NCBI GenBank assembly: GCA_944382925.1
Contig: CALWNX010000131.1
Span: 1 to 35,994 of the forward strand
Origin: an uncultured Clostridia bacterium
GTDB taxonomy: Bacteria; Bacillota; Clostridia; Peptostreptococcales; Anaerovoracaceae
Direction: 5' to 3'
DNA: 35,994 bases
Shown here: one piece after another, positions 5,960-10,575 of the stretch
Layout: every line of letters begins with the position of its first letter
Position numbering within the stretch: position 1 is the stretch's first letter
Translations under genes and position numbers: made by a program
Notes under the pieces: generated by a model
Databases searched by the model: none
What the model saw: the letters and a program-made list of their open reading frames with translations, nothing else
What the model was told of the DNA's origin: nothing

Positions 5960-7114
5960 TTGGAAGTATGTAAACACGATCGCTACTGCGGCGGCTGCAT
6001 CTATCAGGGGCTTCCTTATCAGGAGCAGCTTAAGCTCAAGGAAGAAGAAGTCCTGCGCCTTTTGGCCGAAAAGGGCGTCTCTCCGCAAAAGCTTGAGTCT
6101 ATCGAAGGCTGCCCGGCGCAGTACGGATACCGCAACAAAATGGAATATACTTTCGGCGATATGGAAAAGAACGGGCCGATGACGCTGGGCATGCACCAGA
6201 AAGGGCGCTTCATGTCCATCATCACCGTCGATGAATGTCAGCTGGTGAGCGCAGATTTTAACCGCGTGCTTTCATATACGCTGGCCTTTGCCCGCGAGCG
6301 CGGCTATTCCTTTTATCACAAGAAGACGCACCGCGGCCTGCTGCGGAACCTCATCGTCAGAAGAGGCGTGCGCACGGGCCAGCTGCTCGTCAATCTCGTT
6401 ACCTCTTCGGACGGTGAATTCGACGAACAGGCTTTTACGGCGGGCCTGCTTGCGCTTCCGCTCGATGATGAGATCGTCGGCGTGCTGAGAACCTTCAACG
6501 ACAGCCTGGCCGACGCCGTGATATGTCAGGCGCAGAAGACGCTCTACGGCCGTGATTATTATGAAGAAAAGATTCTTGACCTGACCTTTGCCGTGAGTGC
6601 CTTTTCCTTTTTCCAGACCAATGTGGAGGCGGCCGAAAGGCTGTATGCCAGGGCGATTTCTCTCATCGAGGGTATCGAAGGCAAAGAGGTCTTTGACCTT
6701 TACTGCGGCACCGGGACCATCAGCCAGATCATGGCGCTCGCGGCGGGCCATGTTACCGGGGTGGAGCTGGTTCCTGAAGCGGTCTGTGCCGCCAGAAGAA
6801 ACGCTGCCCGCAACGGACTTGACAACTGCGAGTTCCTCGCCGGAGATGTGTTTGCGGTGCTCAGCGGACTGGACAAGAAGCCAGACGTGATCGTGGTCGA
6901 CCCGCCGCGGGTGGGAATCCAGCCCAAGGCGCTCGACAAGATCCTCGCTTACGGTGTGCGCCAGATAGTATATGTTTCCTGCAACCCGCGCACGCTGGCC
7001 GATAATCTGCGCTACATGGAATACTACGGCTATCGCTGCGATTTTCTTAAGCCGTTTGACAATTTCCCTTTTACGAAGCACACGGAATGTATCGCTTCCC
7101 TGACGCGCAAATGA
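5960..7114 (+). CDS. 23S rRNA (uracil-5-)-methyltransferase, RlmD/RumA family
   Basis: A TrmA/RumA-family SAM-dependent m5U methyltransferase. The protein begins at a TTG (5960) 10 nt after a perfect AGGAGG. Cys4 of the N-terminal cluster motif (C4-x5-C10-x2-C13, then a Cys near residue 51) requires a start at or before this codon. These Cys probably bind a [4Fe-4S] cluster. The Rossmann part has FDLYCGTGTIS (SAM binding), VVDPPRVG and the catalytic-Cys loop VSCNPRTLADN, and ends with HTECIASLTR. At 384 aa it is shorter than many homologues because there is no N-terminal TRAM domain. I cannot tell which uridine (U747, U1939 or both) is modified. It is the last gene of the ruv-que operon. Confidence 0.92.
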   Translation: MEVCKHDRYCGGCIYQGLPYQEQLKLKEEEVLRLLAEKGVSPQKLESIEGCPAQYGYRNKMEYTFGDMEKNGPMTLGMHQKGRFMSIITVDECQLVSADFNRVLSYTLAFARERGYSFYHKKTHRGLLRNLIVRRGVRTGQLLVNLVTSSDGEFDEQAFTAGLLALPLDDEIVGVLRTFNDSLADAVICQAQKTLYGRDYYEEKILDLTFAVSAFSFFQTNVEAAERLYARAISLIEGIEGKEVFDLYCGTGTISQIMALAAGHVTGVELVPEAVCAARRNAARNGLDNCEFLAGDVFAVLSGLDKKPDVIVVDPPRVGIQPKALDKILAYGVRQIVYVSCNPRTLADNLRYMEYYGYRCDFLKPFDNFPFTKHTECIASLTRK

Positions 7115-7118
7115 AAAC

Positions 7119-7147
7119 TTGACAAACGCGGTGCTTTCTGCTAATAT
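7119..7147 (+). promoter_or_regulatory. Strong sigma-A promoter upstream of the leader ORF and CNNM gene
   Basis: TTGACA (7119-7124, perfect), 17-bp spacer, TAATAT (7142-7147, 4/6). The -35 begins only five bases after the preceding stop codon. Transcription would start near 7154, giving a leader of about 200 nt before the CNNM gene. Confidence 0.8.
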
Positions 7148-7182
7148 ACCTATTAAATTGTGAATTTGAAAGGATAAACAAC

Positions 7183-7281
7183 ATGGACGACGGGCCCGAA
7201 GGCAACGCGCACATACAGTTCATACATAGTGTGATCTGCAATATCGATCTATACACGAGGTACAGTAGCTTGCTGCTCTAA
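7183..7281 (+). CDS. Candidate 32-codon leader peptide
   Basis: An ATG at 7183, preceded by AAAGGAT about 7 nt upstream, opens a 32-codon frame ending in TAA at 7279-7281. The peptide begins MDDGPEGN and ends YSSLLL. It lies about 30 nt after the predicted transcription start, and its last codons form one arm of a hairpin (7271-7278). The acidic/proline/glycine-rich beginning resembles, in composition only, the nascent-chain segments known to destabilise ribosomes at low Mg2+, as in MgtL of enteric bacteria. I recognise no homologue. The alternative is a chance frame within a structured leader RNA. Confidence 0.45.
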   Translation: MDDGPEGNAHIQFIHSVICNIDLYTRYSSLLL

Positions 7282-7309
7282 AGCGGGCAGCAGATTGCTG
7301 TGCTTTTTT
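7271..7309 (+). terminator. Candidate attenuator: intrinsic terminator with a competing hairpin
   Basis: Terminator: GCA..CAG (7287-7293, one bulged G) pairs with CTGTGC (7298-7303) around a 4-nt loop and runs directly into six T (7304-7309). Competing hairpin: TGCTGCTC (7271-7278) pairs with GGGCAGCA (7285-7292), 8 bp including one G-U, around a 6-nt loop. Bases 7287-7292 belong to both, so only one can form. The leader ORF ends between the arms of the competing hairpin. Confidence 0.5.
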
Positions 7310-7351
7310 GTGCTTGAAAATAAAATTGAGAAATAGGAGAAAAAGAAAAAC

Positions 7352-8668
7352 ATGAGTGCTATAATCTTACTTGTTATTCTGATCGCTTTGAACGCGATGT
7401 TCGCCTCGGCGGAAATCGCGGTCATATCCATGAACGACGTCAAACTGAAAAATATGGCCGAGGAAGGCAACAAGAGGGCGCAGAAGCTGGTCAGCCTGAC
7501 CGAGCAGCCGGCCAGGTTCCTTTCGACCATTCAGGTCGCGATCACGCTGGCCAGCCTGCTGCAGAGTGCGGTGGCGGCCGAAACATTTGCTGATCAGATC
7601 GTTGACAGGCTGATCGCCGCCGGCATCAGCATTTCGCCGTCTATCTTAAACGGCGTTTCCATCGTGGTCATCACCGTCATCCTTTCGTACTTTACGCTGA
7701 TTTTCGGCGAGCTGGTGCCGAAGAGAGTGGCGATGAAAAAGACCGATATGATCGCTCTGGGCATGGCCGGAATTCTCTATGCTGTTGCCAAGGCCTTTGC
7801 GCCGATTGTCTGGTTCCTGACCAAGTCGACCAACGCCATCCTCAGGCTCATCAGGATCAATCCTGAAGAAGAGGACAGCACGGTGACTGAGGAATCGATC
7901 AAGATGATGCTGGCCGAGGGTAAGGAAAAAGGCGTCATCCAGCCGGAGGAAGATGAGCTGATTCAGAATATCTTTGAGTTTGACGACATCACGGCTGAGG
8001 AGATGTGTACGCACAGACGCGATGTTATCGCGCTGAGCCTTTCCGATGACATAGACGAATGGAAGAGAACCATCAGGGAGAGCCGCCACACCAAGTATCC
8101 TGTTTGCGGCGATACGCTGGACGACATCGTGGGCATCCTCGACACGCGTGATTATTTTATGCACCCTGGTACCGACCAGCAGCAGATAGTAGAAAAAAAT
8201 GTGGACCGGGCCATGCTGGTGCCTGAGAGCATGAAGGCCAACGCGCTGTTCAAGAAGATGCAGGAAAACAGAGAATACTTTGCGGTCGTGATCGACGAGT
8301 ACGGCGGCATGTCGGGTATCGTCACCCTGCACGATATAACCGAGGCGCTGCTGGGCGACCTGTCGGAAAAGGAAAGCCCGGTCAAGCCGGAGGAAATCGA
8401 AAAGATCACCGACAACAAGTTTGTCATTCAGGGCAGCGCTGATCTTGAGGATGTGGCGGACGCTCTGGATATGGAGCTGCCGACCGATATTTACGACACC
8501 TTCAGCGGCTTTATCTGCGGCGTCCTGGGCCGGATCCCGGAGGAGGGCGAGAAGTTCCAGTGCCGCTTTGAGAACCTGCTCATTACCGCGCACAACGTTA
8601 AGCATCATATTGTCGAGAGCGCGACCATCGAGCGCACGCCGGTGCAGAAAGAGGACGAAGAGGAATAA
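7352..8668 (+). CDS. CNNM/CorC (HlyC/CorC) family membrane protein, probable Mg2+/divalent-cation transport or efflux
   Basis: The 438 aa show the classic layout. A DUF21/CNNM membrane domain (about 1-190) starts MSAIILLVILIALNAMFASAE and carries the ELVPKRVAMK motif after a membrane segment. A CBS pair (about 205-325) contains VCGDTLDDIVGILDTRDY and YFAVVIDEYGGMSGIVTL. A CorC_HlyC domain (about 345-425) contains VIQGSADLEDVADAL. Proteins of this type (MpfA, CorC, archaeal CNNM) are linked to Mg2+ homeostasis; older 'hemolysin' labels are misleading. An AGGAG ribosome site sits about 12 nt before the ATG. The gene stands alone behind its own promoter and attenuator-like leader, which suggests regulation, perhaps by Mg2+ (inference). 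Confidence 0.9.
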   Translation: MSAIILLVILIALNAMFASAEIAVISMNDVKLKNMAEEGNKRAQKLVSLTEQPARFLSTIQVAITLASLLQSAVAAETFADQIVDRLIAAGISISPSILNGVSIVVITVILSYFTLIFGELVPKRVAMKKTDMIALGMAGILYAVAKAFAPIVWFLTKSTNAILRLIRINPEEEDSTVTEESIKMMLAEGKEKGVIQPEEDELIQNIFEFDDITAEEMCTHRRDVIALSLSDDIDEWKRTIRESRHTKYPVCGDTLDDIVGILDTRDYFMHPGTDQQQIVEKNVDRAMLVPESMKANALFKKMQENREYFAVVIDEYGGMSGIVTLHDITEALLGDLSEKESPVKPEEIEKITDNKFVIQGSADLEDVADALDMELPTDIYDTFSGFICGVLGRIPEEGEKFQCRFENLLITAHNVKHHIVESATIERTPVQKEDEEE

Positions 8669-9147: not shown

Positions 9148-10575
9148 CTACTCTGCCGCCGGATGGCTGAGGTAGGTGATCAGCCCACCGGCGAAATTGT
9201 CCATCGTGCGCCTGGTCACGCCCAGGGTGATGACGGCCGCTTCGGCATTTTTGCTGCTGATGAGGGCGGCGGGCGTCCATTCTGCGATGCCGATGCTGTC
9301 AAGGTCGATGCTCTGATAATCGCTGTAGGCCTGATGGAAGGCTTCACCCAGCGCTTCGCCGGCTTCACCGGCGTGGAACGGCGCCTGTTCCTCTTCGAGA
9401 CTGTAGTTCACGTCGGTGAGGGCGCTGATCGTCTGATATGCGGTGGCCATATCCGCAAGCAGTTCATCATCGTAGCTGGCGGCTGCCACCTCAATGCTGA
9501 GGGCGTGATTATCTGTCGTGATCGAGCCGATGTTGGCGATCGAAGCGATGTCGCCGTTGTCATCCTTGTAATCAACGCCGCTGATGGCGGTATAGAGCAG
9601 GCTGACGATGCTTTCGGTATCTTCTGTATTGATCACTTGAGCAGGAGTGTCGACCACCTCATAGGTGCAGGAAAGCTCCGGCATATCGGCGATGTTATCA
9701 TCATAGAAGTTCTCGATGGCGCTGTCAAGCCTGCGCTCCAGCTTGGTGGCTGAGTCGGCGTTGACGACGATGGTAAGCTGCGCATCCTGCGGAGTCATAT
9801 CAGCGTCGCGTCCGCCGCTGAAGGAAGCAAGCTCAAAGAGGATCGAGCTCGATTTTAAATCAGCCAGCAGTTCACCGAGGAATTTGATCGGATTGTCTGT
9901 CTGCGCATTAGCAGCGCTGAATCTCAAAGCGGGCAGGCCGGAGATGCTGACCTTGTAGGCGACGTCATAAGAGGTTTCCTGCAGGCGCAGCTCCTTGGAA
10001 AGCACGTATCTGTGGAAGCCGCCGGTAGAAGCGGAAAGCCGCGAGCTCTGCACGTCGCTGAGACAGAAGACTTCGGTTTCGTCGCTAAAATATTTGGCAG
10101 AAAGCTGCTCGGCGTTGAGCTTGCTGCCCAGCTCTTCCGAAACGAAGATGATCCTGTATTCGCCGTGCGGCATATCGTTCTTGGCCACGGTCAGAGCGCA
10201 GACGATGCTGTTTTTGTACGAAGCCATGCTGGCGTAATCGTAGCCGCAGACGATGACGACAGGATTTTTATCTTCCATGCCCTCGCTGGCGGGAAGAGTA
10301 TAGATCACGTTGCCGTAGCTGTCCGTGCTCACGTCGATACCCTTGTTCTCGGCCCAGTCGATGAGATAACGGCTTGCTGCCGCCTGACTGTCCATCGCGG
10401 CCAGCGAATCGGTCAGATCTGTGTCATAGGCTGAAACGCGATTGTTGACCGTTTCTTCCAGCGTAGGCGGCCGTTCCTCATCATGTATAAAGTAAAAATA
10501 CGCCGCCGTCGCCAGCGCCGCCAGCAGCAGGACAGCGGCACAGCAGATAATAATAAGCTTCTTTTTCTTCGACAT
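9148..10575 (-). CDS. Membrane-anchored, degenerate M20/PepD-like protein (probable pseudo-peptidase)
   Basis: 475 aa. A Lys-rich start and hydrophobic segment (about 7-30) predict an N-terminal anchor with the rest outside. Residues 69-160 follow the M20/PepD (aminoacyl-histidine dipeptidase) pattern: a YLIDWAENKGIDV helix, SYGNVIYTLPAS, then VVIVCGYDYASM where active enzymes have a G-H-x-D metal motif, and YKNSIVCAL where they have ADNGIGVAL. The EE of the catalytic motif is kept in VSEELGS (about 145-151). A later ISGLPALRFSAANAQ segment sits where PepD has its GGHSG loop. With Tyr for His and Lys for the bridging Asp, metal-dependent hydrolysis looks lost. Ribosome site AAGGTGG. Assignment rests on pattern reading only. 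Confidence 0.6.
   Translation of the reverse strand: MSKKKKLIIICCAAVLLLAALATAAYFYFIHDEERPPTLEETVNNRVSAYDTDLTDSLAAMDSQAAASRYLIDWAENKGIDVSTDSYGNVIYTLPASEGMEDKNPVVIVCGYDYASMASYKNSIVCALTVAKNDMPHGEYRIIFVSEELGSKLNAEQLSAKYFSDETEVFCLSDVQSSRLSASTGGFHRYVLSKELRLQETSYDVAYKVSISGLPALRFSAANAQTDNPIKFLGELLADLKSSSILFELASFSGGRDADMTPQDAQLTIVVNADSATKLERRLDSAIENFYDDNIADMPELSCTYEVVDTPAQVINTEDTESIVSLLYTAISGVDYKDDNGDIASIANIGSITTDNHALSIEVAAASYDDELLADMATAYQTISALTDVNYSLEEEQAPFHAGEAGEALGEAFHQAYSDYQSIDLDSIGIAEWTPAALISSKNAEAAVITLGVTRRTMDNFAGGLITYLSHPAAE

Follow-up and report, generated by a model that had tools for sequence, protein, structure and literature searches.

A short ORF with an acidic start and an intrinsic terminator precede clostridial CNNM/CorC genes: a candidate attenuator sensing ribosome stability

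CNNM/CorC-type genes of Clostridia can be preceded by a short leader ORF with an acidic start and an intrinsic terminator, an arrangement described here for a 35,994-nt stretch of DNA from an uncultured Clostridia bacterium (the window, part of a 1.7-Mb draft genome) and for related loci. The promoter, the 32-codon leader ORF and the terminator of the window are real, the leader is much more general than this single window suggested, and its anatomy, conservation and association with CNNM genes are well supported. We interpret it, with moderate confidence, as a leader-peptide transcription attenuator that would sense how stable its translating ribosome is, and in which a completed ORF would lead to readthrough. 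A leader-peptide attenuator before the CNNM gene had been proposed in an initial annotation of the window; the attenuator stands, but its switch logic does not, and the predicted sign is reversed. The proposal should probably be turned round, with finished translation giving readthrough and early abortion giving termination.

In the window, the leader lies in a 237-nt intergenic gap between rlmD, which ends at 7114, and the CNNM gene, which starts at 7352. A predicted sigma-A promoter on the forward strand (7119–7147; TTGACA-17 nt-TAATAT with TG before the −10, 10 of 12 consensus matches) is expected to start transcription near 7154, and the predicted transcript start is only about 25–30 nt 5′ of the leader start codon. 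The ORF itself (7183–7281, +; 32 codons, MDDGPEGNAHIQFIHSVICNIDLYTRYSSLLL followed by a UAA stop) has the acidic start MDDGPEGN and a Shine-Dalgarno (SD)-like GAAAGGA just upstream (7168–7174, +; anti-SD duplex −8.2 kcal/mol); its last 7–8 codons lie within the 5′ arm of the terminator and its stop codon in the hairpin loop. The downstream gene (7352–8668, +) encodes a 438-aa CNNM/CorC-type protein with CNNM, CBS and CorC_HlyC domains by Pfam match, each above its gathering score (PF01595, 171.8 bits; PF00571, 50.2; PF03471, 62.5). Promoter, leader ORF and CNNM gene are all as initially annotated. A pattern search of the window's genome for an SD followed by ATG GAY GAY gave four matches, of which only the window leader fits. 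Elsewhere in the window, the reverse strand at 9148–10575 may encode an aminoacyl-histidine dipeptidase-like protein, judging from a weak and partial match to TIGR01893; Pfam gave no match.

The intrinsic terminator predicted by folding (7257–7309, +) is one long hairpin of 21 pairs with one C-A mismatch, in which a 5′ arm (7257–7278) and a 3′ arm (7285–7306) enclose a six-base loop (7279–7284) that holds the UAA stop. The hairpin directly abuts a U6 tract (7304–7309), has an energy of about −28.9 kcal/mol on its own, and forms part of the leader's minimum-energy fold (z = −3.6 against 200 shuffles). A terminator consisting of the GCAGCAGATTGCTGT stem and this U6 tract had been recognized from the outset and is borne out. 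It could in principle be the ordinary terminator of the upstream gene beside a chance or unrelated small ORF, without any regulation, and with rlmD ending at 7114 a nearby terminator is unsurprising. A dedicated promoter nevertheless separates rlmD from the terminator, and the same arrangement recurs in many families and many gene contexts, making this explanation very unlikely. The fold also bears on the proposed switch, which had set a "competing hairpin" (7271–7278 with 7285–7292) against the terminator as a mutually exclusive structure. Since this stem is the apex of the 7257–7278/7285–7306 hairpin, the proposed antiterminator is part of the terminator and not its rival; the terminator as initially drawn uses the same 3′ arm, so that the two hairpins do not represent two switch states.

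Related loci lead to the same result. Pairing of the upstream leader with the terminator 5′ arm did not differ from that of shuffled sequences (mean z 0.08, with 0 of 58 leaders below −2), and no shared-arm antiterminator pairing of the kind initially proposed is conserved among these 58 leaders, where it stays at chance level. A classical antiterminator/terminator attenuator is thus ruled out by the apex-of-terminator fold together with the lack of an antiterminator in relatives. Promoters with at least 9 of 12 matches occur upstream of 55 of 59 leaders, compared with 14% of control positions, and the median distance from the end of the −10 to the leader start is 35 nt (59 leaders), which leaves little room for an antiterminator or an aptamer. 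A riboswitch (e.g., M-box, ykkC, or yybP) was likewise rejected, as the 5′ UTR before the ORF is only about 28 nt and an Rfam search of the window and 20 related loci gave no match except tRNAs. Since no upstream pairing exceeds chance and the ORF begins soon after the predicted transcript start, under the simplest interpretation the ribosome itself would act as the antiterminator. These observations weigh against an MgtL-like sign, in which early ribosome failure would allow an antiterminator to form and switch the CNNM gene on at low Mg2+, while full translation would lead to termination. The acidic start does resemble those of MgtL, MgtQ and related leaders, whose failed translation at low Mg2+ leads to higher transporter expression (PMC11282234, PMC8092293). 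Yet the antiterminator that it requires coincides with the upper part of the terminator, the 5′ arm pairs with upstream sequence no better than chance in 58 leaders, a stable terminator free of competitors predicts termination of an untranslated leader, and switching on an exporter at low Mg2+ would make little physiological sense; we therefore regard this sign as quite improbable.

To place the leader in a broader context, relatives of the window CNNM protein were fetched and their upstream regions read. By hand curation in named genomes, about 62 of 80 clostridial CNNM loci have an SD-preceded short ORF, an acidic start and an intrinsic terminator, the carriers including Lachnospiraceae, Oscillospiraceae, Syntrophomonadaceae, Thermacetogenium, Ruminiclostridium, Thermoclostridium, and Massiliimalia. 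These ORFs start with MDD, MED, MDTD, MDPD, MSDSSDSD or similar, and their sequences differ strongly between groups while the architecture is kept: terminator arms and mid-peptide are divergent, whereas the acidic start and the relation between ORF end and hairpin persist. A comparison across relatives had been suggested as a check in the initial annotation, and in it the ORF frame, the acidic start and the ending of the ORF at the terminator prove strongly kept.

This association was quantified with a strict automatic criterion, which combined an SD, at least three D/E in residues 2–9, a terminator of −10 kcal/mol or lower, and a stop codon from 100 nt past to 10 nt before the start of the 5′ arm. 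It was passed by 38 of 79 CNNM genes and by 0 of 273 other genes from the same loci. Because the architecture recurs before CNNM genes across Clostridia and none of these other genes pass, it is more than chance. Once frozen, the criterion was passed by 9 of 26 further CNNM loci held out when it was set, and at least four more (L154, L155, L165, and L168) have leaders that are seen by eye and narrowly fail the cut-offs. Without the geometry requirement, 40 CNNM regions contain an acidic SD-preceded ORF, and 38 of these 40 also pass the geometry. A profile of one leader type, run against 391 genomes of the class, yielded five strong matches, all immediately upstream of CNNM genes, three of the five being the same sequences from which the profile was built. 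A strict DNA pattern of the MDDG(D/G)xTD leader type had no match in the 391 genomes and was probably too narrow.

The leader peptides share charge at their start rather than a fixed sequence. Across 65 leaders, the share of D/E at codons 2–8 is 91%, 66%, 22%, 22%, 31%, 5%, and 55%, and it is near background after codon 12, with K/R almost absent at codons 3–8. D and E are interchangeable (26 D and 10 E at position 8), which indicates that charge, and not one amino acid, is conserved. The acidic segment is DDGPE in the window and DDGDSTD, DDSPDPE, DSDADSDSE, DPDV and similar elsewhere; codons 2–9 of many leaders contain just two acidic residues and no proline. The acidic and/or proline first codons characteristic of a short MgtL-type uORF are therefore found both in the window (MDDGPEGN) and as an enrichment among the 65 leaders, and of the initially proposed MgtL-like start sensing Mg2+, the acidic start is conserved at codons 2–8 whereas the sensing of Mg2+ is plausible only. 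Between related leader pairs, which are not independent of one another, 45 synonymous changes were observed where about 25 would be expected if the stretch were non-coding, which points modestly to coding constraint. The SD, the frame and the codon pattern together suggest that the leader ORF is translated.

Such a leader could also sense the charging of Asp/Glu (or Leu) tRNA, as in amino-acid attenuation, for which the runs of Asp codons at the start and the LLL at the end of the window leader might be cited. We rejected this explanation because D, E, S, G, and P interchange across leaders. In addition to this swapping between species, the acidic run is too far upstream for stalling to affect the terminator, there is no antiterminator, the LLL end is kept within one leader type only, and the downstream gene is not biosynthetic, so that amino-acid attenuation is hardly credible. 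A general C-terminal arrest motif (H-x-I-S/L-stop) was also rejected, being confined to one leader group. A group of leaders (L095, L097–L101, L106, L041, and L078) ends in FH(Y/M)IS just before the terminator, and this ending might conceivably signal slow termination.

The end of the ORF is positioned relative to the terminator throughout the curated set. In 59 curated leaders, the stop codon falls between 102 nt past and 8 nt before the start of the 5′ arm, within a curation that itself allowed the stop at most 10 nt before the arm; as a frame control, the +1 frame stops too early in 35 of the 59 and the +2 frame in 48. Two designs can be distinguished: in 44 leaders, including that of the window, the stop lies just before or inside the hairpin, and in 15 the ORF runs through the whole hairpin, many of the latter ending in LLCVFLLL. 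Leaders that cross both hairpin and U tract (L042, L043, L057, L059-L066, L072, L085, L086, L103, and L136-L140) mostly end in a conserved L(S/P)xLLCVFLLL-like peptide. At one locus (L040), the leader ORF extends beyond the terminator into the start region of the CNNM gene, an overlap that would bring translational coupling as well.

When a ribosome was modelled at the stop codon, the median hairpin energy in the first design changed from −24.7 to −5.5 kcal/mol, and in the window from −28.9 to 0 kcal/mol, i.e., the terminator was abolished in the model, whereas a ribosome modelled at codon 6 left the hairpin energy unchanged. In leaders of the L069, L084, and L097 type, whose stop precedes the 5′ arm by 1–8 nt, only the hairpin base is lost under the footprint (−22.9 to −21.6 kcal/mol in L084), and for these the ribosome model relies on the stem base being needed beside the U tract. 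Coverage of the terminator 5′ arm by a ribosome at the stop, listed at first as a weak point of the attenuator, is instead a conserved feature and probably the mechanism.

Taken together, we propose the following sequence of events. RNA polymerase would start just upstream of the short leader ORF, and the acidic segment would be translated first, with ribosome dissociation favoured at low cation (Mg2+, perhaps polyamines). If the ribosome were lost at the acidic start, the intrinsic terminator would fold freely and transcription would stop. A surviving ribosome would reach the stop just before, inside or beyond the hairpin and mask or unwind its 5′ arm, and with this arm masked the polymerase would read into the CNNM gene. 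The exporter would then be on at sufficient or excess cation and off under cation scarcity. The geometry of ORF and hairpin is consistent with ribosome arrival causing readthrough, and by analogy with MgtL the acidic start may destabilise ribosomes in these bacteria as well; Mg2+ as the signal, and the on-at-high-cation sign, are likewise our predictions. Acidic and proline starts destabilise ribosomes in other bacteria, and MgtL, whose translation is thereby made dependent on Mg2+, uses such destabilisation at low Mg2+ (PMC11282234, PMC8092293, PMC12421838). In B. subtilis, the polymerase outruns the ribosome (as cited in PMC9226507), and as the two are not tightly coupled there, the timing of the attenuator in Clostridia is uncertain; if Clostridia are likewise uncoupled, this timing would need a pause or a fast start.

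The window CNNM protein is a probable Mg2+ (or polyamine) exporter. Its CNNM/CBS/CorC_HlyC architecture places the leader, like MgtL, upstream of a probable Mg2+-transport gene. The CNNM protein MpfA protects Staphylococcus aureus from high Mg2+ (PMC5122736), and Salmonella corC expression goes up at high Mg2+ (PMC12421838); an on-at-high-cation sign would suit an Mg2+ exporter in light of both. Ribosome arrival could also be the antiterminating event with a signal other than Mg2+, such as polyamines, the general capacity for translation, drugs that inhibit translation, or a factor resembling ABC-F/EttA or L31. The best NCBIfam match of the window CNNM protein is the polyamine exporter PaeA, below its cut-off; polyamines can replace Mg2+ (PMC12421838); and in enteric bacteria, EttA and L31 modulate leaders that have an acidic start (PMC11282234, PMC8092293). 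Other CorC/CNNM-family proteins are, however, tied to Mg2+ tolerance (PMC5122736, PMC12421838), and we consider a non-Mg2+ signal possible but rather unlikely.

Several known systems resemble the clostridial leader in part. In mgtL-mgtA of Salmonella and E. coli, a short ORF with an acidic/Pro start also precedes an Mg2+-related transporter gene, and ribosome loss is the proposed sensing step. MgtL, however, operates through alternative RNA structures and a Rho-dependent terminator, whereas the clostridial leader has an intrinsic terminator (hairpin and U tract) overlapped by the ORF and no alternative structure; likewise, completion of MgtL turns an importer off at high Mg2+, while the clostridial leader precedes a probable exporter and has the opposite predicted sign. 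Given this intrinsic terminator and the lack of a competing structure above chance, the clostridial leader is not an mgtL/mgtA leader, and may, by analogy, share only the MgtL sensing step. The corL-corA and mgtQ-mgtB uORFs are also small translated ORFs before Mg2+ transporter genes, with acidic residues that matter in mgtQ, but they belong to importers of Enterobacteriaceae, act through Rho termination (corA) or RBS release (mgtB), and require alternative structures. For CorC (YbeX) of E. coli and Salmonella, a rise in expression at high Mg2+ has been suggested to follow from ribosome destabilisation by the early codons (PMC12421838); there the destabilising sequence, at the N-terminus in E. 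coli CorC, belongs to the coding region of the protein itself and affects translation, whereas the clostridial leader is separate and would act on transcription. Finally, the position of a ribosome on the leader ORF decides downstream termination in tnaC, trp, and vmlR-type leaders too, but this is a stalled ribosome, usually with an antiterminator or Rho, while in the clostridial leader an intact ribosome is predicted to cause antitermination upon its arrival. Neither the full-text literature searched, which includes few subscription journals, nor two motif surveys (PMC8632094, PMC11109978) contained an earlier description of the clostridial CNNM leader.

In a tree of CNNM proteins, the leader is found throughout one large clade. 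The window protein groups with Lachnospiraceae-type sequences, as does its nearest relative in the genus, whereas most members of the window's own family belong to a different CNNM clade without the leader, which suggests that gene and leader were transferred jointly. In this leaderless second clade, CNNM proteins begin with motifs such as MDPSPDPS, MVTDPDPS, or MDLDPDPD (L009-L018, L021, and L025, from the window's own family). Such acidic/Pro starts may be a built-in destabilising version, by analogy with E. coli CorC, or may reflect an outside N-terminus. They occur in 8 of 63 CNNM proteins with a leader vs. 21 of 41 without (Fisher p = 3e-5), mainly a difference between the two clades, and independent pairs on the CNNM tree give no support to repeated exchange between leader and built-in acidic start. 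The second CNNM paralogue of the window's genome (L112, G000:C44) starts MLTDPDSLLTQL, has no leader and lies directly behind another gene; paralogues related to it share a DPD/DSD start. A different CNNM paralogue from the same family (L128, G018:C112) is preceded by the leader MDSDSSDNFNYNDFIRHTWTA, a stop codon and then a terminator, and the leader device may accordingly extend past one CNNM clade.

Overall, we lean somewhat towards viewing these leaders as a new and widespread class of attenuator in Clostridia, in which ribosome stability would be the cation sensor and the surviving ribosome the antiterminator, with no aptamer, regulatory protein or alternative fold. This class would mirror MgtL but be on at high Mg2+; it would govern the export of Mg2+ (or polyamines) and pass from one bacterial family to another along with the exporter gene. 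To our knowledge, it is chiefly in enteric bacteria and yeast that acidic starts have been found to destabilise ribosomes. If the proposal is true, an acidic start and a terminator placed 10–60 codons apart would make a transcription switch out of ribosome stability across much of Clostridia. Sensing through ribosome destabilisation would then no longer be limited to enteric bacteria and to importers but would also cover exporters, with the sign reversed, and the proposal would provide a clear substrate prediction for clostridial CNNM proteins.
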